Assembly: GCA_002730235.1 (NCBI GenBank)
Contig: PBZS01000084.1
Coordinates: 1 to 37,793, forward strand
Length of the DNA stretch: 37,793 bases
Direction of reading: 5' to 3'
From: Gammaproteobacteria bacterium
GTDB taxonomy: Bacteria; Pseudomonadota; Gammaproteobacteria; Pseudomonadales; Litorivicinaceae
The notes under the pieces were generated by a model that saw only the letters and a list, made by a program, of their open reading frames with translations, was not told where the DNA came from and did not search any database. This document shows, one piece after another, positions 1 through 10,495 of the stretch. The stretch's first letter is position 1, and each line of letters begins with the position of its first letter. A program made the translations under genes and the position numbers.

Positions 1-309
1 CTTCGCAAAGCAGGTTATATCTTCATTGAGGAGCTCAGAAAGGCTGATTTATACGATAAGGTATCACAGGCATTTGCTGTTTTTTTACCAGTAAACTCTG
101 TTGGCGTAGTCGGCGATCAGCGCCGATATGCCCCCGTAATTGCGTTGCGCGCTGTTGAGACGGTTGACTTTATGACAGCCCGTTGGGCACGTTTACCTCA
201 CGAGTTTATCGAACGTGTCTCTGGCAGAATCATTAATGAAATCGAGGACGTCAGTCGGGTTGTCTATGATGTGAGTTCGAAACCACCGGCAACGATCGAG
301 TGGGAGTAG
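1..309 (+). CDS. guaA: GMP synthase (glutamine-hydrolysing), C-terminal part; truncated by window start
   Basis: Frame 1 from base 1 translates to [102 protein letters not shown], with the characteristic GuaA C-terminus (GDQRRY...; KPPATIEWE). Confidence 0.97.
232..309 (+). repeat. Left copy of guaA 3'-end direct repeat (attL-like)
   Basis: attaatgaaatcgaggacgtcagtcgggttgtctatgatgtgagttcgaaaccaccggcaacgatcgagtgggagtag aligns ungapped with 5761-5838 (60/78 identical by hand count). Confidence 0.85.
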
Positions 310-351
310 CTGATAGCCAGTAATTCCTTTTTTTGGTTGGCGAAATCTTTA

Positions 352-369
352 ACCTATAGAGTTATAGGT
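352..369. repeat. Short inverted repeat downstream of guaA (acctata-gagt-tataggt)
   Basis: 7-bp arms, 4-nt loop; another tataggt at 391-397. Confidence 0.5.
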
Positions 370-398
370 AACTACAAATCCCAGATTCACTATAGGTG

Positions 399-1319
399 TC
401 AGTGGTTAGTAAAAAAATCATTGCAGTCGATTCTTGGTAGGGTCAAGCTCGGAAAATAAGATTCGGTATTAAGGCGATTGTCGATAAACCCAGCCTTTAT
501 CTGAAACTCTTCGCAAATATCCAGTGTGTCACTGTTGTAGTCTCCGTATGGATAAGCGATCAGTAAGTCCTGCGAAACACCAAATTCTCGAAATACATTT
601 ATACTCTCCTCGAAGTCCATTTTTTGCCTGGCCTTTGAAAGCGAACTTAGATAGAAATGATTATAGCCATGCAAGCCGAGGCTGTGTCCCTGTTTCTGAA
701 GCGCGCTGAAATCATCAGGGGCCATGTACAGCTCGTCTCTGAGAAGATTAAACTTCATTGGCTCATCATCCAAAAATGACTCACAAAACGAGCTTAGTTG
801 ACTACTTTCAAATTTTTTCTGGAATACTCGTTTTAGGAAATTAGTAACAGCGCCATCGTATTTACCGTCTTTAAGGTATTTAGATTTAAGATCGTTTAAT
901 TCATCGGTACCGAATCGCTCAATTTGAATTAGGTACTGAATCAAGTGCTCCATTAATTGAGCTTCGCGTCCCCTAAACCGGTGCAGCATAAGATGTATTT
1001 TATTGACTAAGAGGATTTCACGGGTGACCAGTATCTTTGCCGGTACGAAAAAGAGACCGTGTATGCCAATATCCTTTAGGAATGGGGCTACTAAACGTAC
1101 GTGATCGATGTACCCGTCGTCAAAAGTTAAAACTATGCTATTTGAGTCCTCCGCCACATCTAACCATTGCTCAGTGGTTAGAGATTTGGGGTCCAAAAAA
1201 ACTTTCCCATTGTTTAATAGTCCGTAAATATTTTTTTTAAATAAATCGAAATCATAGAAATTATTTACTTTCGCGGAGAATGAATCGGACAGCCGAACAT
1301 AGTGGTACATGATAATCAT
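399..1319 (-). CDS. Polysaccharide deacetylase (NodB-homology family)
   Basis: TFDDGYIDH motif, SLGLHGYNH metal-binding-type motif, AYPYGDYN segment. Start overlaps the FkbH-like gene stop. Confidence 0.9.
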   Translation of the reverse strand: MIIMYHYVRLSDSFSAKVNNFYDFDLFKKNIYGLLNNGKVFLDPKSLTTEQWLDVAEDSNSIVLTFDDGYIDHVRLVAPFLKDIGIHGLFFVPAKILVTREILLVNKIHLMLHRFRGREAQLMEHLIQYLIQIERFGTDELNDLKSKYLKDGKYDGAVTNFLKRVFQKKFESSQLSSFCESFLDDEPMKFNLLRDELYMAPDDFSALQKQGHSLGLHGYNHFYLSSLSKARQKMDFEESINVFREFGVSQDLLIAYPYGDYNSDTLDICEEFQIKAGFIDNRLNTESYFPSLTLPRIDCNDFFTNH

Positions 1320-2947
1320 TGTTTTTCATCTATTTCGTATGAGATGTATGTCGTCTCATTGATTATAGTTTGACTGGGCTTAGTAAATTCGATCATTGAC
1401 TCTTGGAAGGTTTTTTGTTTAAAACCATGAGTTTGGAAATAGCTTTTAGCATATTTATTCTTCGATGTTAGATTTAACGCTAGCGAAATCGTTTGGCACT
1501 GTGGGTATTTGCTACACAGGAATTGAAGGATTGAATTCTCTACATTACGAGTGAATGCACGGCATGAGAGACACCAACCTTTAATTTCCAACATCTGCTC
1601 TGTGTAAACCGTACCGTAGATACAGGAAATAATCCCATAATTCGAATAAATATCTTGCAACGTGAATAGCCAAAAAAAGTCCCTTTGATGAATAGTGAAT
1701 GCTTTCACTTCTTCGTAATCGACTTGCGAGCCCCTGATATTAAATTGATTAGTTTTATTTAAGAGTTGTATTGCTCGATCTATGTTTTCAGATGATACCG
1801 ATTGCGCTCGCAATACTAGCTGCAGTGACTGGAGGTATTCTGAATTTGACATTGATTTGCTCGAGGCTAAGCGTTTTCCTTCGTGCTGATAAAATTGCGT
1901 GCGTGTTAAGTCCTCGCCGGTAACAACTGGAGTGTGGAAAAGGTTTGAATCTGTGAGGTATTTGTTCCACTCATATGGTTCTTCAGGCATTTCGAAGACG
2001 ATTATTTCAGGCAGTGTCGAAGAAACTTCGTTCTGTTCGAACCTACTGTCGTCGATAAATGCAACGCCAGAGTGTGTTAAGTTCAACTCAGCAAGCGCTT
2101 TGCTTATATTTTCGGATTTTGGTTTCCAGTTGGCATTAATGGTAGCGAAATCCTCCCAGTGAAGTATGAGTTCCTCTTTTCTAACGTTAAAAAATTCTTT
2201 CACGATATCGGTATCGTTTTTAGATACGATGTTGAGTAAGACACCGCTCTGCTTCAGCTTTTTTAGGCGGTGTTGCAGGTCCAAATGCGGGAGGGCTGAC
2301 GAGTCTGGAGCTAGATTGATTCCTCCGACACCCTCATCCCCAAGTACTCCTGGCCATAACGTATTATCTAAATCAACGAAAATGGTTTTTAATGGACGTG
2401 AGATTGATGCGTCAATGATACTGAAAATCCGTTGACTGATAGCCTCATAGTATTTCGGGTGAAATGAGAATACCCCAATTCCATGGTATTTCCGTGGCAA
2501 AAAGTTTTCTGCATTCTCATAAAAAAATAAGTCGAATAGATCAATGAATATATATTTTTCCTGTTGAGTAAGCAAAAATAGTTCTCTGTTGATGTGATCT
2601 ATTGTTAACTTGAGGAATGTGTCCGAACATGCGGATTCCGGATATTCTATTGCAGTAATATATAATTTTCCGCTAAACCATTCGGTGATTGAAGCGAGAG
2701 ATTGCTTGACCTCTTCGAGGAATTGACCAGTTGACAGTCTGTCTGGTGAGATAGCAGTCGCAGATAAAAATAATAACATCGAATCGGGTTCAAAGTCGTT
2801 CAACGTTGAGTCGAGACCCCTACTACAAAGCTTCCAAGCACCGAAACTGGTTTCTAACATTTCGACTTCATATTTTTTTTCGAGAAGCGCACTTAAATTC
2901 TGGGTTAAAAATTGGGTGCTAACATTACTGAGTATAGCCAGTTTCAA
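1316..2947 (-). CDS. FkbH-like protein (HAD-superfamily phosphatase/glyceryl transferase)
   Basis: KTIFVDLDNTLWPGVLGDEGVGGI and NIVSKND HAD motifs, FIDDSRFE; C-terminal GNAT-like part with the LSCRAFTRNVE motif typical of FkbH proteins. Confidence 0.92.
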   Translation of the reverse strand: MKLAILSNVSTQFLTQNLSALLEKKYEVEMLETSFGAWKLCSRGLDSTLNDFEPDSMLLFLSATAISPDRLSTGQFLEEVKQSLASITEWFSGKLYITAIEYPESACSDTFLKLTIDHINRELFLLTQQEKYIFIDLFDLFFYENAENFLPRKYHGIGVFSFHPKYYEAISQRIFSIIDASISRPLKTIFVDLDNTLWPGVLGDEGVGGINLAPDSSALPHLDLQHRLKKLKQSGVLLNIVSKNDTDIVKEFFNVRKEELILHWEDFATINANWKPKSENISKALAELNLTHSGVAFIDDSRFEQNEVSSTLPEIIVFEMPEEPYEWNKYLTDSNLFHTPVVTGEDLTRTQFYQHEGKRLASSKSMSNSEYLQSLQLVLRAQSVSSENIDRAIQLLNKTNQFNIRGSQVDYEEVKAFTIHQRDFFWLFTLQDIYSNYGIISCIYGTVYTEQMLEIKGWCLSCRAFTRNVENSILQFLCSKYPQCQTISLALNLTSKNKYAKSYFQTHGFKQKTFQESMIEFTKPSQTIINETTYISYEIDEKQ

Positions 2948-4050
2948 TTTTTCCCTCCTCTGATTATATTATTTATGCTCGGCCGATCTTGATCGCCGTC
3001 TGATTTTGTTATGTATAGCTCATCCCAGGTTGGTTTTGCTCCGTCTTTCAGAAAAAGTTCGACATTTTGGTCTCTAGGACTCTCTACGATCGGGTTGAGT
3101 AAGTTTGGCAAAATATGGTTCACATCAGGAACGTAACCAAACAGCTGCAATTGTTTATGCAACTCTACATTTGTACAATAAAAATCAGAAAAAGTGACCT
3201 CATGCTGTTTCGCGAATGAGTCCAAATACATTAGCATAGCTCCAAGAATGGTAGATGCTTCGCGGTCGTCTGGGATTAAAACTTCAACTATTCTAATACA
3301 ATTGAATACAGATCGACCCGACGTTCTCTCTAGTCTAAAAACTAATAAATATGGTTTATCTCTGTTCTGAAATAAACAGAATTCATACCTGAATGCTGGG
3401 GTTTGGAGGTATTTCTTTTTTATAAACTGATAATCTCGCAGCGTTCCATAATGATTATTTTTATAGTGCTTCCAGTTAGGTTTAAAGTTTGATTCGTTAA
3501 CGTAGTTAGTTAATTTGATATCCTCAAATCTTGTTGACTTTAAATAGGGTTTGTTTTGGTCGGTACTAGGCTGTAACTCGTGTAGGTTATGTTCTGGAAA
3601 TGTCTCGTTTAACTTTTTTTGATTAAAGATTTTGACTGATCGTGGTATGGCGTCAAGGAAGTGGTGCCCCATTTTGGTCACAAGACTCTTATTGAGTTGG
3701 TTTGCTCCTTGGCCGAGGATTATCGTGTACAGCTCCTGGAGCCGTTTCATAAGTAAAATACCTACACCGTGCCTATGAGCCCTATCTACTGTCCAGTGAG
3801 ATGTCCAAACTCCCTCGATCGTCACCCCTCCCCACCTAATTTGCGAAGGCATATATCCAAGAATGCCGACGATTCTTTCGGCCTCAAGAGCACAAATAAT
3901 ATTATAATTGTTATTTTCAAAATCTTTAAAATAATAGTCCAGCATAATTACTTGCGTCATGACGTGCTCTTCACCATGATTTTTTCTAAAAAATTGAACT
4001 AACTCTGCTAGGTACTCTCCGGGCAACTGGTCTACTAATTTAAGAGTCAC
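2944..4050 (-). CDS. GNAT-like N-acyltransferase family protein (368 aa)
   Basis: N-terminal region EAERIVGILGYMPSQIRWGG...GVWTSHWTVDRAHRHGVGILLMKRLQE resembles a GNAT acyl-CoA-binding fold; large C-terminal extension. Confidence 0.65.
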   Translation of the reverse strand: MTLKLVDQLPGEYLAELVQFFRKNHGEEHVMTQVIMLDYYFKDFENNNYNIICALEAERIVGILGYMPSQIRWGGVTIEGVWTSHWTVDRAHRHGVGILLMKRLQELYTIILGQGANQLNKSLVTKMGHHFLDAIPRSVKIFNQKKLNETFPEHNLHELQPSTDQNKPYLKSTRFEDIKLTNYVNESNFKPNWKHYKNNHYGTLRDYQFIKKKYLQTPAFRYEFCLFQNRDKPYLLVFRLERTSGRSVFNCIRIVEVLIPDDREASTILGAMLMYLDSFAKQHEVTFSDFYCTNVELHKQLQLFGYVPDVNHILPNLLNPIVESPRDQNVELFLKDGAKPTWDELYITKSDGDQDRPSINNIIRGGKN

Positions 4051-4054
4051 TGGT

Positions 4055-4474
4055 TTAAGTGTCCTCAGACGGGTAGCTACATATCACCCGTCCGGAAACG
4101 ACTTTTTTTGAGCTGGATTTCTCAAAGATAGTTATTGCCAGATACACTGCGTTGACTGCGTGGACAACACGCTGGACTGACACACGAACTTGGATCGTTT
4201 GACCTTTGTAGAGAGGGCGGTGGTACTTTAAGGTAAGTTCATTAATGACGCTCTCGGGCCCTGGCAAACTGTTTCCAAGTACTCCGGAGATGAAAGACGC
4301 TGTAAATAGTCCGTGGGCAATAGTGTCATCAAAACCCTTATTTCGAGCAAATTCAGAGTCGAAATGAATCGGCGCGAAATCACCCACTAACTCAGCAAAT
4401 TGAAGAATTTTTTCTTCGGTTACCCAGAAGTCGGTTACGACCTCGTCGCCCTCTTTAACGTCAACCAGCGCCAT
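4055..4474 (-). CDS. MaoC-like (hotdog fold) dehydratase/hydratase
   Basis: MaoC signature GDFAPIHFDSEFARNKGFDDTIAHGLFTASFISGVLGNSLPGP. Start chosen at MALVDVKEGDEV (ATG 4474) inside the 4055-4522 ORF. Confidence 0.88.
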   Translation of the reverse strand: MALVDVKEGDEVVTDFWVTEEKILQFAELVGDFAPIHFDSEFARNKGFDDTIAHGLFTASFISGVLGNSLPGPESVINELTLKYHRPLYKGQTIQVRVSVQRVVHAVNAVYLAITIFEKSSSKKVVSGRVICSYPSEDT

Positions 4475-4715
4475 TTGGAATGAAGCCCTTCGATTCAAGC
4501 ATATCGATGAAATCTCCAACATTTGCCAAGTTCATGAGATCTTCAGTTGTCAGTGTTAAGCCTGTATGCAGTTCAATTTCAACGATCAAAGTGATGTGAT
4601 TGAGTGAATCCCAGTTCTCGACGTCGTTTGCACTCATTTCACGAGTGACAATTAAACCGGTATCTTCAAATACCGATCTGAAAATGGGCTGTAGCTCTTC
4701 AATAATACTCATCAT
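4461..4715 (-). CDS. Stand-alone acyl carrier protein
   Basis: 84 aa acidic protein with phosphopantetheine site WDSLNHI and typical ACP spacing; overlaps the MaoC gene start. Confidence 0.9.
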   Translation of the reverse strand: MMSIIEELQPIFRSVFEDTGLIVTREMSANDVENWDSLNHITLIVEIELHTGLTLTTEDLMNLANVGDFIDMLESKGFIPNGAG

Positions 4716-4719
4716 TACC

Positions 4720-5697
4720 TCATTTGGTTACGACAAACGCCGCATTGGTTGGAACTATGTCACCTGGTTTGCGCGGCTCATAAGCCTGGTCGACAGTCTG
4801 GCTGAGAATTGTAAAATCTGCAGTTTGAATTTGTTCTGCGACTTCGTCTGCATTCCTGTACAGATAAATATGGTCCGCATTAGGCGCGTTTATGGCCGCG
4901 GATATGAAGCCTAATCCTCCTGTACGCAGCATGCTGTTCAGTCCGTGAAGGAAATCAACTGGATTTTCTAAATGTTCTAGCACCTCGATCGAATTGATCA
5001 CGTCGCAGACTTCGGTTTGATCACGTTCTAAAATATCGCCAAGTCGCGATTGATACCGCTCGGAAAAATCCCAACGTTCGACCATCATCTCCGTGTGGCC
5101 TAAAGAGTGCGGACTCATATCGAACCCAGTGACCTGACTCGATTTCAAACGTCGTAAATACTCTTTCGTATAGAAACCAGTGCCAACCCCAACGTCGTAG
5201 ATTAATGGATTACTGATCTCCGCGATCCGAGGGATTAGTTCTTTTTCATAAAACTTCAGTTGGACATAATGATGCTCCCACAGGTAGTGAGAAATTAATA
5301 TTCCCGGCAGATACAAGCCAAACATATAGTCACGATTTTGATAGACCTCGGAAGACGCCTCCGCATATGTCTTATTTCGATATTCTAATGTCTTATTGAA
5401 CTCAACTTGCAGTTTCATCGAATCTAAGCAGAAAGCTCCGTATCCCAGTGCGGCCGATTGGATACGGTCTTCATCGGAGCCAAAAAATACCTCTAGTTCT
5501 TTGTTAAAGGCGCTAGCCCAGTCGTCACCAAATTTTGCGTATTGACGGTCGAATCCACCCATGAAGTAGGGAAATTTCGAGCAAATGAATTCCTTTAAAG
5601 TATTGATATATTTGTAATCTTCTATCATTTTAACCTTCGATATTGCATTGTAGTCGTGTAACGCATGTCCAGCCACGTAAGTCCGTTCACGATTCAT
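4720..5697 (-). CDS. Class I SAM-dependent methyltransferase
   Basis: LIYDVGVGTGFYTKEYLRR (motif I), TGFDMSP (motif II), DVINSIEVLEHLENP, LRTGGLGFISAA. Confidence 0.88.
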   Translation of the reverse strand: MNRERTYVAGHALHDYNAISKVKMIEDYKYINTLKEFICSKFPYFMGGFDRQYAKFGDDWASAFNKELEVFFGSDEDRIQSAALGYGAFCLDSMKLQVEFNKTLEYRNKTYAEASSEVYQNRDYMFGLYLPGILISHYLWEHHYVQLKFYEKELIPRIAEISNPLIYDVGVGTGFYTKEYLRRLKSSQVTGFDMSPHSLGHTEMMVERWDFSERYQSRLGDILERDQTEVCDVINSIEVLEHLENPVDFLHGLNSMLRTGGLGFISAAINAPNADHIYLYRNADEVAEQIQTADFTILSQTVDQAYEPRKPGDIVPTNAAFVVTK

Positions 5698-5736
5698 CAG
5701 CGGAGACTGACTGAATATATTGAATCTCTTGTTGAC

Positions 5737-5838
5737 ATCTGAACAGTCTCGAATTTTAACATTAATGAGATCGGAGGCGTCAGTCGGGTTACCTATGATG
5801 TAAGCTTGAGGACGCCTGTAACGATCGAGTAGGCATAG
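5737..5838 (+). pseudogene. guaA 3'-end remnant (attR-like right copy of the direct repeat)
   Basis: 5761-5838 attaatgagatcggaggcgtcagtcgggttacctatgatgtaagcttgaggacgcctgtaacgatcgagtaggcatag; same frame gives INEIGGVSRVTYDVSLRTPVTIE*, matching the GuaA C-terminus [25 protein letters not shown]. Weaker similarity extends upstream to about 5737. Confidence 0.85.
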
Positions 5839-6091
5839 ATCCTATAATAAAATTTAGATAAACCAATAATCTAGAATAAATAATCGACTAAGAGGTACTC
5901 AAAAATTTAAGGTTTCCTTGCTATTGGAACTTTAGTGTGAAGAAAACTCAGATTTTAGAATGAGTCTTTCGCTCAAATCCCGTGATTTATTGGGAAGATT
6001 AAGTTTTTCGACTTGTATATTAAGATCTAAGAGTTGAAACATAGACGAACGTCATTGCAGATCAATACGATACTTAGGATTCAGTGAGCAG

Positions 6092-7873
6092 ATGCCAAAA
6101 GTAAATAGAAAACTAGCCACCATTTTAGCTACTGACTGCGTGGGCTTCAGCAAGTTTATGGAAACCCAGGAGGTGCTTACACTAGCCAATTTAACTGCTT
6201 GTCGTGAAATTATTGATCCAATAATTGAAGAGCATGGTGGAAGAATTTTTCATACGGCGGGGGACTCTGTGATTGCTGACTTTGGGAGCCCTGTTGAGTG
6301 TGTTCATGCTGCTATGAAATTTCAGGAAGCGCTCGCTAGCCGAAATGAGACTGTTGAGGAAGGCCCAAAACTAGAATGGCGAGTTGGCATTCATGTAGAT
6401 GACGTGATCACAGAGGGTGAAAATATATATGGAAGTGGGGTGAATATTGCTGCACGTTTAGAAGCGCAATGTGAGCCTGGCAAGATTCTTTTATCTCGAA
6501 TAGTTCAGGAACAAGTTCAAAAACGGGTGGATTTTACCGTTAGCCCAGCCGGTACTCGTGCCTTGAAAAATATTTCCGATGAATTTGAGGTTTTTTATAT
6601 TGCCAAGGGTACGGAGAAGAGTGGTGGAGATTGGAAAGCCCCGTCTGCCATGGTGAGAGAAACTCCTGAGTCCAATTCAGGGGGCGTTAGTAAAAAACCT
6701 AGGTTGGCAATTCTTCCTTTCACAAAAGACGGAAGAGATGAAGATAGCGGTTATCTCGCGGACGGAATTGTCGAGGACCTAATCACCGAATTTTCGATGA
6801 TACGTGAATTTGAAATTGTATCGAGTAAAACCAGTTTTGATTTCAGAGACAAAGAGGAGAACACCTCAGAATTTGCAGCTGCTCACGATTTGGACTTCAT
6901 CATTTCTGGAGGGATCAGATCCTCCGGTAAGCGTGTTAGGATTTCTTTGGAATTGAGTGAAGTCGAGAGTGGCAAGGCCGTTTGGAGAGGTAGGTATGAC
7001 CGCGTAATAGAAGACATTTTCGATTTACAAGACGAAATAGTCCGTACCATTACGATATCCTTACTAGGAGAAATCGAGATATCAAGCCTACAGCGATCTA
7101 AGCGTAAGGCCACAGAAAATATATCATCTTATGAGTATTTATTACGCGGCAAGGAAATGCATCACAGGTTCGAGAAAGAAGCGAACAAACAAGCTCTAAA
7201 ATTTTTCGATAAAGCTGTCGAGGCTGACCCGTTGAACGCACAAGCCCATGCGTGGAAGGCGTGTACGATTGGGCAGGGAGTTGTTCGTGGTTTCCTTGAG
7301 GGAGATCCCGACAAAATTGTAGGCCAGGCTATGGAGAGTATTTCTCGAGCGCTGGACTTGAACGAGAATGACTTTGAATGTCACAGAATGCTGTCGGCTG
7401 TCTATTTGAGTCAGCACGAGTATCAATTCGCCGAAGAGCATGGGCGAAGAGCCTACGACATGAACCCTAATGATCCAAGAGTTCTTGCCGGCTATGGTGA
7501 GGTATTGGCTAGGGTAGGAAAATCAGAAAAGGGTATTGAGCTGCTAGAGAAAGCCCTTTCCCTCGATCCTATCCCGCAAGGTCAAATAAATTCAGATAAC
7601 AGATACACAGATCTTCTACTTGCACATTTTTACGCGAGTGATTTTCAAAAATGTATAGAAATTGAAAAAAAAGTTGAACATATCAATTTTAAATCTTGGT
7701 TATTCGTAAATTATTCAAAGTCTAAGCTTGGCAGGTTTGATCAAAAAGATGTGCACTTTAAGCAGGGGCTGAAGGAATTTAAGGACGGTAACTGGGATCT
7801 GAAAGTCGACCGACTTCATCTGCCAAATGAAGAGACCCGATTAGATTTGTTAGATTTTCTAAATAATCTGTGA
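6092..7873 (+). CDS. Class III adenylate/guanylate cyclase fused to TolB-N-like and TPR domains
   Basis: RKLATILATDCVGFSKFM; GGRIFHTAGDSVIADF; ENIYGSGVNIAARLEA cyclase motifs; then PRLAILPFTKDGRDEDSGYLADGIVEDLITE (TolB-N-like) and TPR-like C-terminus. Confidence 0.92.
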   Translation: MPKVNRKLATILATDCVGFSKFMETQEVLTLANLTACREIIDPIIEEHGGRIFHTAGDSVIADFGSPVECVHAAMKFQEALASRNETVEEGPKLEWRVGIHVDDVITEGENIYGSGVNIAARLEAQCEPGKILLSRIVQEQVQKRVDFTVSPAGTRALKNISDEFEVFYIAKGTEKSGGDWKAPSAMVRETPESNSGGVSKKPRLAILPFTKDGRDEDSGYLADGIVEDLITEFSMIREFEIVSSKTSFDFRDKEENTSEFAAAHDLDFIISGGIRSSGKRVRISLELSEVESGKAVWRGRYDRVIEDIFDLQDEIVRTITISLLGEIEISSLQRSKRKATENISSYEYLLRGKEMHHRFEKEANKQALKFFDKAVEADPLNAQAHAWKACTIGQGVVRGFLEGDPDKIVGQAMESISRALDLNENDFECHRMLSAVYLSQHEYQFAEEHGRRAYDMNPNDPRVLAGYGEVLARVGKSEKGIELLEKALSLDPIPQGQINSDNRYTDLLLAHFYASDFQKCIEIEKKVEHINFKSWLFVNYSKSKLGRFDQKDVHFKQGLKEFKDGNWDLKVDRLHLPNEETRLDLLDFLNNL

Positions 7874-7944
7874 GACGTTTTCTTACGGTATGAGTTTGTC
7901 GAATGGATTATCACTTTTTCCAATTCTCCCAATGGTAAATCAGC

Positions 7945-8871
7945 ATGTCAGAACTTATTCTTCATCATTATTGGCAGTCACCATTTGCTCATAAAATTCG
8001 CCTTGTGCTTGGTTTGATAGATATCTCATGGCGGTCGGTTGAGATTCCTAGGATCCCACCTAAACCGCTGTTGATTCCGTTAACCGCGGGATATCGTAGG
8101 ACTCCTGTCTTACAGTGTGGTGCAGACGTGTTTTGCGATACCCAAAATATTGTGAGGGCTATAGCTGACCTGACTGATGATCATCAACTGATTCCAGCAT
8201 CTAAGCGTGCGAAAATTCTGATGTTTACTGACTGGATTGATGGCACTGTTTTTAACCTGGCGGTGCGAGTTATATTGACGTCGGCAATGGAGACGGCGCC
8301 CCCAGAGTTTATTCAAGATCGTGCTGGGTTGTACTTCGGATCAAATTGGACACCAGATGGACTCAAAGCACAGCTTCCTGGGGTTATTTTGCAGCTGGGC
8401 GCCCATTTGAAATTGATTGATCAAGGCTTGGCTGGATCTGGTGGTTTTGTGAGTAGAGCACCGTCATACGCAGATATTTCGATTGCCAATATCGCTTGGT
8501 TTATTCGCGGTCGTTGGGAGAATGGCCCTAATTTTTTAAAGCAATTTCCAAATATTGAGCGTGTTGAAAGAGAGATCCATGTGCAGACTAGTGAGCGCTG
8601 TGAGGATCTTACAGGCGATGCTGCGTTGGCGATCGCTCATGATTCGCTCTCCTCTGCACCCGAGGGTGTTCAAAGACAGGCCGAATGTTCTATGCAACAA
8701 GGCATGCGAGTTTCGATCACGCCACAGGCTGATACCTCAGACCCTCCCATAATTGGCCAACTCCGTTCTTTGGATGATATTCGTGTGTCGATTGATCACA
8801 ATGCGCCAGAGGTTGGTGATGTAGTAGTTCACCTACCAATCGCTGGGTATCAGATTCAATCTTGTGAGTAA
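7945..8871 (+). CDS. Glutathione S-transferase-like protein with C-terminal extension
   Basis: N-terminal ELILHHYWQSPFAHKIRLVLGLIDISWRSVEIP...GYRRTPVLQCGADVFCDTQNIVRAI is GST thioredoxin-fold-like. Confidence 0.82.
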   Translation: MSELILHHYWQSPFAHKIRLVLGLIDISWRSVEIPRIPPKPLLIPLTAGYRRTPVLQCGADVFCDTQNIVRAIADLTDDHQLIPASKRAKILMFTDWIDGTVFNLAVRVILTSAMETAPPEFIQDRAGLYFGSNWTPDGLKAQLPGVILQLGAHLKLIDQGLAGSGGFVSRAPSYADISIANIAWFIRGRWENGPNFLKQFPNIERVEREIHVQTSERCEDLTGDAALAIAHDSLSSAPEGVQRQAECSMQQGMRVSITPQADTSDPPIIGQLRSLDDIRVSIDHNAPEVGDVVVHLPIAGYQIQSCE

Positions 8872-9745
8872 GCAGACGCCCCAAGAAGAAAATATTCGTT
8901 GCATTGTGTTCATGGTTGTCGCAATGGCTGGCTTTGCCATCGAAGACGCAGTCATTAAACAGCTCTCATATACAATGCCGATTCCCCAAGTCCTTATGTT
9001 GATAGGAATCGGTGGATTATTGATCTTTGGAATAACAGCAGTAGTGACCGGTGTACACCTGGTGACGGATGACATGGTGAGGCCCTGGTTTATCATCAGA
9101 ACGACGTCTGAACTGGCTTCAGCGATATGTTTTGTGACCGCCATTGTGTACGCATCACTCTCAATTTCCTCAGCGATCCTTCAGGCGACACCCTTAGCTG
9201 TCTCTTTCGCAGCGGCTGTGTTTCTTAAACAGCAGGTCAGTAGGAGGCAATGGTCGCTAATCGCTATTGGATTTGTTGGGGTTATTTGTGTTGTCCAACC
9301 AGGCCTCGATGGTTTTAGGCCGGCGGCGTTAGCCGCGGTATTGGGCGTAGTGTTTCTCGCGTTAAGAGATGCAATCACACGTTCGATTTCTGTATCGATT
9401 CCTGCAGTCTCTGTATCTTTTTGGGCATTTTTTGCTCTTTTCATTGCGGGTATTGTCACCATACCTTTCTTCGGAAAATTTGGCGTAATTACTTTTGTCG
9501 ATGTTGGCCTTCTGGCAGTTTCTGCCCTGGCCGGTAGTGGGGCATATTTCTGTATTGTTATGGCTACTCGTAGCGGTGATGTAGCCGTCGTAGCTCCCTT
9601 TCGTTATACGCGACTGCTGTTTGCCCTCGGGCTTGCAGTAGCCGTCTTCGATGAGCAGATCAACGCGTTGATGATTTTAGGTAGTAGCCTGATCGTAGGA
9701 TCTGGTATGGCTATGTTTGTCTCAGGCGTCCCGTCCCGGCAATAA
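8864..9745 (+). CDS. EamA/DMT-superfamily transporter
   Basis: About 10 hydrophobic helices; two EamA-like repeats (AIEDAVIKQLS...; LQATPLAVSFAAAVFLKQQVSRRQWSLIAIGFVGVICVVQPG; VAPFRYTRLLFALGLAVAVFDEQ). Confidence 0.9.
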   Translation: MSKQTPQEENIRCIVFMVVAMAGFAIEDAVIKQLSYTMPIPQVLMLIGIGGLLIFGITAVVTGVHLVTDDMVRPWFIIRTTSELASAICFVTAIVYASLSISSAILQATPLAVSFAAAVFLKQQVSRRQWSLIAIGFVGVICVVQPGLDGFRPAALAAVLGVVFLALRDAITRSISVSIPAVSVSFWAFFALFIAGIVTIPFFGKFGVITFVDVGLLAVSALAGSGAYFCIVMATRSGDVAVVAPFRYTRLLFALGLAVAVFDEQINALMILGSSLIVGSGMAMFVSGVPSRQ

Positions 9746-10495
9746 CTCCACCAAAGCGCTAACGAGAGCAGCATTACTGTCGGCAGTTGTTCCATCGGGT
9801 AACCATATCCCATTTTCGAAACCGATACGGAGATCAATACCTTCTGAAGCGGCTCGGAGTAAGCATGGGATCTGGCCTTTCCCAAATGCGCAGATCATTT
9901 CTTGAGTTGGGTTACAGGTCTTTTTGAACCGATCTCTGATATCTAAAAATGGATCAAGTTGGTCAGGGGTGCTCTCTTGATTGTCCGAGTACCGCCCGAG
10001 GACGTAAAGCACTTCAAGTACCTTGGTTTGAATGATTGACTTATGAATGAGAGCCGTGAGCGTTTTAAAATCATCTGTATTATACAAGATAAATTGCACA
10101 CGACTTTTGTTGAGTAATCGATAAAAAAATGGCTGCAATCTTGCTGGATCTTGAGAGCGTAAGATCTCTTGTATCGCGACTGAAACCCATGGAACTCTGA
10201 TTCGAGATAATAGATCGATCTGAGCATCTGACTCGTAGATGCCCGCCGCCTCTGAGGTTACTTGAACTTCGAGGTTTGGTAATCGTTCGTTCAGTTTCGT
10301 GACCAGTGACTCGTACCGTTCAACATCCAGAAGGTGTGTTTGTTTTTTAGTGCGGATGTGTGCATGGAGGCCACGGGCCCCCGCCTCATAACAGGATATT
10401 GCGGTTTCAATCAGATTCTCGTCAGTTACTGGAGTGGCTGGATGATCATGTGTGGTCCTGCGAGCACCGTTCGGTGCGACCATTATAAATGTCAC
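9722..10495 (-). CDS. BKACE (beta-keto acid cleavage enzyme, DUF849) family protein
   Basis: IMVAPNGARRTTHDHPATPVTDENLIETAISCYEAGARGLHAHIR (HxH metal site) and RIGFENGIWLPDG near the C-terminus. Confidence 0.85.
   Translation of the reverse strand: MTFIMVAPNGARRTTHDHPATPVTDENLIETAISCYEAGARGLHAHIRTKKQTHLLDVERYESLVTKLNERLPNLEVQVTSEAAGIYESDAQIDLLSRIRVPWVSVAIQEILRSQDPARLQPFFYRLLNKSRVQFILYNTDDFKTLTALIHKSIIQTKVLEVLYVLGRYSDNQESTPDQLDPFLDIRDRFKKTCNPTQEMICAFGKGQIPCLLRAASEGIDLRIGFENGIWLPDGTTADSNAALVSALVELLPGRDA

Follow-up and report, generated by a model that had tools for sequence, protein, structure and literature searches.

On balance, the operon described here would be an island-borne cassette which adds an N-acyl group to an amino sugar on the cell surface. 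The acceptor would most likely be a nonulosonic acid, pseudaminic or legionaminic in type, on flagellin or on another surface glycan. The operon is found in the window, which is the whole stretch of 37,793 nt that was analysed and comes from a marine bacterium. A sequence-only reading had described six packed genes between positions 399 and 5697, with no condensing enzyme among them, and this is confirmed by the open reading frames, all on the minus strand, and by family scans. The order of transcription is methyltransferase, ACP, MaoC, GNAT, FkbH and NodB-type deacetylase. The features of the region are as follows:

1–309, plus strand: 3' end of guaA (GMP synthase; PF00958, 3.3e-43), the insertion site, at the contig start
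231–309, plus strand: direct repeat, copy 1, the final 79 nt of guaA
399–1319, minus strand: NodB/CE4-type deacetylase (PF01522, 4.5e-19)
1316–2947, minus strand: FkbH-family HAD glyceryl transferase/phosphatase, with a TTG start
2944–4050, minus strand: large GNAT-like acyltransferase (368 aa), with a GTG start
4055–4474 (open reading frame to 4522), minus strand: MaoC, an (R)-specific hydratase-like hot-dog protein
4461–4715, minus strand: stand-alone ACP, predicted phosphopantetheine site Ser37 in ENWDSL
4720–5628 (open reading frame to 5697), minus strand: class I SAM-dependent methyltransferase with an N-terminal helical domain
5760–5838, plus strand: direct repeat, copy 2, a degenerate guaA 3' end beyond the operon

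The spacing, read from the coordinates of the open reading frames, is the one stated earlier. There are gaps of 4 nt between the methyltransferase and the ACP and between MaoC and the GNAT, and overlaps of 4 nt between the GNAT and FkbH and between FkbH and the deacetylase. The ACP and MaoC genes overlap by 14 nt if MaoC starts at an internal ATG (4474), or by 62 nt if it starts at the first ATG. A scan for promoters and terminators gave nothing in excess of shuffles.

The families to which the proteins had been assigned agree with our profile searches: These support FkbH, MaoC, the deacetylase and the methyltransferase, and less strongly the ACP, while the GNAT is recognized through its relatives. 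FkbH matches TIGR01686 (1.2e-79, 267.8 bits, cut-off 146.65); its match to the FkbH_N model PF21211 is below the cut-off (18 bits vs. 27). It keeps the motifs DLDNTLW, SKND, IDDS and KTNQFN, and the HAD catalytic residues D192, D194, S242, K243, D299 and D300 are invariant. The deacetylase shows the motifs TFDDGY, HGYNH and AYPYG, and no signal peptide is apparent from its sequence. MaoC (PF01575, 2.4e-18) has a conserved GD..P.H motif, and its closest solved structures are HTD2 (3ir3) and PhaJ (1iq6). The ACP match is weak, over the cut-off (PF00550, 1.6e-4, 22.3 bits, cut-off 20.8). An AcpS is encoded in the host genome (G000, contig C67), where only three PP-binding matches are found, all of them in open frames of 78–88 aa.

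The methyltransferase (PF08242, 6.3e-12) probably starts at 5628 rather than 5697, since the protein of a congener begins at the equivalent methionine. It aligns end to end with methyltransferases which are neighbours of FkbH in other genomes, including a Campylobacter-type locus (L207); residues Y63, Y83, Y96, W117, D252 and H253 are invariant in this alignment. Its AF2 model (pLDDT 91.7) resembles natural-product methyltransferases. The GNAT family scan gave a single match, PF13527, below its cut-off (0.016), and three of nine relatives match GNAT models, with values down to 8.7e-7. The predicted structure also matches GNAT folds, with a low confidence (pLDDT 46.9), which is too weak to give more than a hint of the fold. 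The assignment of 2944–4050 as a putative GNAT is thus supported by the matches of its relatives and by this low-confidence model. A C-terminal motif, TKxDxDQDRP, is conserved throughout the family of the window GNAT (A5). No solved relatives of the methyltransferase or of the GNAT were found by sequence.

Judged from the DNA, the six genes form a genomic island, inserted at the 3' end of guaA. The two copies of the repeat are identical in 61 of 79 nt; with 60 shuffled queries, the highest count was 41. Copy 2 is also found in a congener, G017. In two sister species (G005 and G016) guaA runs straight into an adenylate-cyclase gene, the same gene which lies past the operon in the window: An empty site therefore exists. 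No integrase open reading frame is found in the insert (310–5760).

Across this genus, guaA 3' ends are a hot spot (L153, L154, L159, L160, L163, L164 and L165). What follows guaA varies with the species: toxin-antitoxin-like pairs or an EamA-like gene in some, a GNAT or nothing at all in others. In G020, a second guaA 3' end is found about 4 kb further on.

Of the 21 other species of the genus that were compared, a single one has the operon; several of the 21 are incomplete assemblies. In this congener (G017, locus L011) the same six genes have an identical order and place. The proteins are 78–90% identical to those of the window (82% for FkbH), and all six are intact. Five genes have dN/dS values of 0.09–0.15, the short ACP gene has 0.33, and the comparison shows no internal stops: The six genes are under purifying selection. 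A degraded operon is ruled out by dN/dS values of about 0.1 and by the lack of internal stops.

The cassette itself names no sugar, and in the host it is not adjacent to sugar genes. Contig C11 of the same assembly contains PseB, PseC, PseF and PseI over the curated cut-offs, and PseG and PseH just under them. These genes, together with an N-acetyl sugar amidotransferase, adjoin a flagellin C-terminus. The host genome has four Flagellin_N matches and two NeuB genes, the second one on contig C65. The host assembly is a MAG, for which contamination stands at 3.5%. On contig C80 (L156) it contains another guaA, which is complete and has the empty type of downstream region; this second copy may reflect either a mixed bin or a true duplication. 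The window and the Pse contig are likely part of one chromosome, and this falls short of proof because of the second guaA. In G017, which is an independent assembly, the cassette is found together with nonulosonate genes. In the region read these are of the legionaminate type, not Pse, so the acceptor may differ. The model for the Maf transferase (PF01973) has no match in the host genome; it matched archaeal controls alone, so little weight is given to this.

Two further observations concern genes of this kind. Positions 6038–12671 of contig C65 (L016) code for a DUF4910 protein, a hexapeptide acetyltransferase, an AMP-binding enzyme, an ACP, an AAC(3)-like transferase, a cytidylyltransferase-like gene product and NeuB, which looks like a second ACP-dependent system for nonulosonate acylation. 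In locus L045 (10222–11958), a 578 aa protein with no Pfam match lies between PseI and flagellin; its TPR-like start, seen by eye only, suggests a FlmG-type flagellin glycosyltransferase.

The closest described parallel comes from Campylobacter jejuni. In strain 11168 the Cj1293–Cj1315 locus gives pseudaminic acid which is 5-N-acylated with 2,3-di-O-methylglyceroyl. Cj1295 is required, and its authors propose that it removes an acetyl group ahead of re-acylation (PMC3068675). The FkbH of this locus is Cj1302 (PMC7099621). As a stand-in for C. jejuni itself we have used L207, which its gene order and the taxonomic order of its source mark as a Campylobacter-type locus. It contains PseB, PseC, a DUF4910 protein (Cj1295 type), an AAC(3)-like protein, an ACP, a methyltransferase, FkbH, FabH and another ACP, followed by a PseF-like cytidylyltransferase and by PseG- and PseH-like genes. 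Cj1295 is aminopeptidase-like, and L207 has a DUF4910 protein in the corresponding position. The L207 methyltransferase belongs to the same family as the one in the window.

In both systems, therefore, one gene set combines an ACP and an FkbH with a methyltransferase from this shared family. In C. jejuni they are neighbours, whereas MaoC and the GNAT stand between ACP and FkbH in the window. The C. jejuni locus has a proposed DUF4910/DUF2172 deacylase (Cj1295), an AAC(3)-like protein, FabH and a second ACP; in their stead, the window has a NodB-type deacetylase, a GNAT and MaoC. The DUF4910 protein and the AAC(3)-like transferase are absent from the cassette and present elsewhere in the host (L016). 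A deacylase and an acyltransferase which swap an N-acyl group, as proposed for C. jejuni, would be common to both, and the two window enzymes, deacetylase and GNAT, seem to be a different pair with the same task. The di-O-methylglyceroyl group of C. jejuni would have the composition expected from glyceryl-ACP and two methylations. Finally, the C. jejuni locus lies beside pse genes and flagellin, while the window cassette is in an island away from its pse genes.

Other known systems share parts of the cassette. Methoxymalonyl-ACP cassettes (fkbG–K type) also have FkbH, an ACP and an O-methyltransferase. This identity is ruled out by the absence of their two dehydrogenases, for which, as had been pointed out, there is no open reading frame beside the cassette. 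A PKS or NRPS fragment is ruled out as well: The KS, AT and adenylation domains reported as absent are indeed not found beside the cassette, and no partner PKS is present in the window. These absences also count against the idea of a minimal natural-product cluster, whose product would be a small secreted metabolite or a lipid headgroup (a glyceryl- or methoxy-acylated amine). FkbH, ACP and O-methyltransferase do occur in polyketide pathways (PMC7489565, PMC3679948), and the methyltransferase model has the resemblance mentioned above. Nevertheless, many relatives are found in glycan clusters, and we consider this idea quite improbable.

In the tetronate glycerate-utilisation operon, FkbH and a stand-alone ACP make glyceryl-ACP. 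That operon has a FabH-like ring-forming enzyme, which is not found beside the window FkbH. Sets of FkbH, ACP, MaoC and SDR with no condensing enzyme are common in many phyla (Bacteroidota, Bacillota and others), so the lack of a KS is not strange in itself. They resemble the window in FkbH, ACP and MaoC; they differ in having an SDR, and most of them have no GNAT or deacetylase.

The neighbourhood search which the sequence-only reading had proposed, for co-occurrence outside PKS loci, shows that GNAT, deacetylase, FkbH and ACP do recur together, several times in nonulosonate clusters. A scan of named genomes for FkbH left 80 loci. Of 103 loci, 13 have a member of the methyltransferase family no more than 6 kb from FkbH; the Campylobacter flagellin locus is among them. 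A GNAT is found at 6 of 8 FkbH loci with a nearby deacetylase and at 1 of 93 without it (p 1.5e-7), a count in which some loci were found through the GNAT. GNAT and nonulosonate genes also co-occur at FkbH loci (4/7 vs. 8/94, p 0.003). Three GNAT loci were found by FkbH alone: L097, L103 and L122. All three have a deacetylase, which is found at 2 of the remaining loci, about 74 in number (p about 1e-4, calculated by hand). When the GNAT profile was run on 399 genomes drawn separately, 8 further genomes matched, 7 of which have a deacetylase, FkbH or ACP within the fetched stretch.

The combination of FkbH, GNAT and deacetylase, mostly with an ACP, thus recurs in unrelated phyla, and several of these sets are in nonulosonic-acid clusters. 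The order FkbH-ACP-GNAT-deacetylase is found in L024, L103 and L122. L024 is a flagellin locus with NeuB, NeuC, PtmE and Maf, L103 (Pelagibacter) has two PseA-like amidotransferases, and L122 (Paludibaculum) has NeuC. L097 (Anaerolineales) contains NeuA, deacetylase, ACP, MaoC, SDR, FkbH, GNAT and a NeuB fragment. A related arrangement is seen in L051: NeuB, NeuA, ACP, AAC(3)-like, MaoC, methyltransferase and FkbH. The FkbHs linked to a GNAT fall in at least three separate branches of the FkbH tree, so this association was made repeatedly. The window FkbH is on a long branch, and its exact position is therefore unsure.

Several GNAT/FkbH/deacetylase loci (L218, L219 and L223), on the other hand, are not close to any nonulosonate gene, which counts against a nonulosonic acid as acceptor. 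L218, from another class, has a stand-alone operon of four genes (6402–10457): deacetylase, probable ACP, FkbH and GNAT.

The same chemistry might act on another amino sugar, such as an amino-deoxyhexose of O-antigen or exopolysaccharide. This is suggested by the operons lacking sugar genes (L218, L219) and by L023, a polysaccharide cluster with GNAT and deacetylase and no visible NeuB. Against it, all three GNAT loci found by FkbH alone have nonulosonate-type genes, which are present at 5 of the remaining loci, again about 74 in number (p about 8e-4, calculated by hand). We regard such an acceptor as rather unlikely. L023 has no FkbH, and GNATs normally use acetyl-CoA: Deacetylase and GNAT might then perform an ordinary turnover of polysaccharide N-acetyl groups, with ACP, FkbH, methyltransferase and MaoC feeding a separate process. 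The tight coupling of the genes, their conserved order in three phyla and the repeated, independent linkage to FkbH make this very improbable.

For the N-acylation of a nonulosonic acid, which we prefer, the mechanism would be as follows. The transfer of glyceryl from 1,3-bisphosphoglycerate to an ACP is established chemistry for the FkbH and ACP families. AcpS would convert the ACP to its holo form, and FkbH would load it in this way, removing the phosphate. The methyltransferase would O-methylate the bound acyl group, and MaoC would hydrate or dehydrate it, or an intermediate. The NodB-type deacetylase, presumably cytoplasmic, would strip the N-acetyl group from a nucleotide-activated or lipid-linked sugar, and the GNAT would move the acyl group from the ACP to the freed amine. 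We infer the order of these steps, the acceptor sugar, the role of MaoC and the use of ACP, not CoA, as the donor. GNATs usually use acyl-CoA, which counts against the last point. This chemistry is weakest in the part given to MaoC, which is uncertain because dehydration of a glyceroyl thioester removes a hydroxyl which the methyltransferase could use. Such a dehydration would give the enol of a pyruvoyl group, and the SDR of other loci could reduce it to lactoyl; the window operon has no SDR. As a whole, the sequence-only proposal that a glyceryl-type acyl group may be built on the ACP, tailored by methyltransferase and MaoC and then moved to a sugar amine fits all the comparative evidence.

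The operon had also been called a candidate for an undescribed pathway. This goes too far. The ACP, FkbH and methyltransferase set is already present in the Campylobacter flagellin locus, and FkbH-ACP-MaoC-SDR sets lacking a condensing enzyme are common. The NodB-type deacetylase and GNAT as an acyl-swapping pair, and the location in a guaA island, seem undescribed. In the literature searched, no paper joins FkbH with a polysaccharide deacetylase or with O-antigen. More tentatively, a mobile, recurrent module (FkbH, ACP, GNAT and NodB-type deacetylase, with optional methyltransferase and MaoC) could exchange the N-acetyl group on nonulosonic acids for a C3 acyl group, methylated or dehydrated, which is carried by the ACP.

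Unusual N-acyl groups of nonulosonic acids diversify flagella and surface glycans. The enzymes which modify these sugars are largely unknown, according to papers on Tannerella, and for Pse5Am7Gra of Tannerella forsythia the gene for the glyceroyl step is stated as elusive (PMC6120980). This sugar is a pseudaminic acid with N-glyceroyl, amidinated as the host amidotransferase might allow; there is no link at the level of genes. The cassette bears on this openly stated gap, the genes for N-glyceroyl on nonulosonic acids. All the candidate activities are found in one compact operon of six genes, which makes the question testable in vitro in a single series of experiments. If true, the acyl-swap module would be the missing enzyme set for sialic-acid-like sugars of the N-glyceroyl type outside Campylobacter, and its GNAT would be an example of one which depends on ACP and acts on such sugars.
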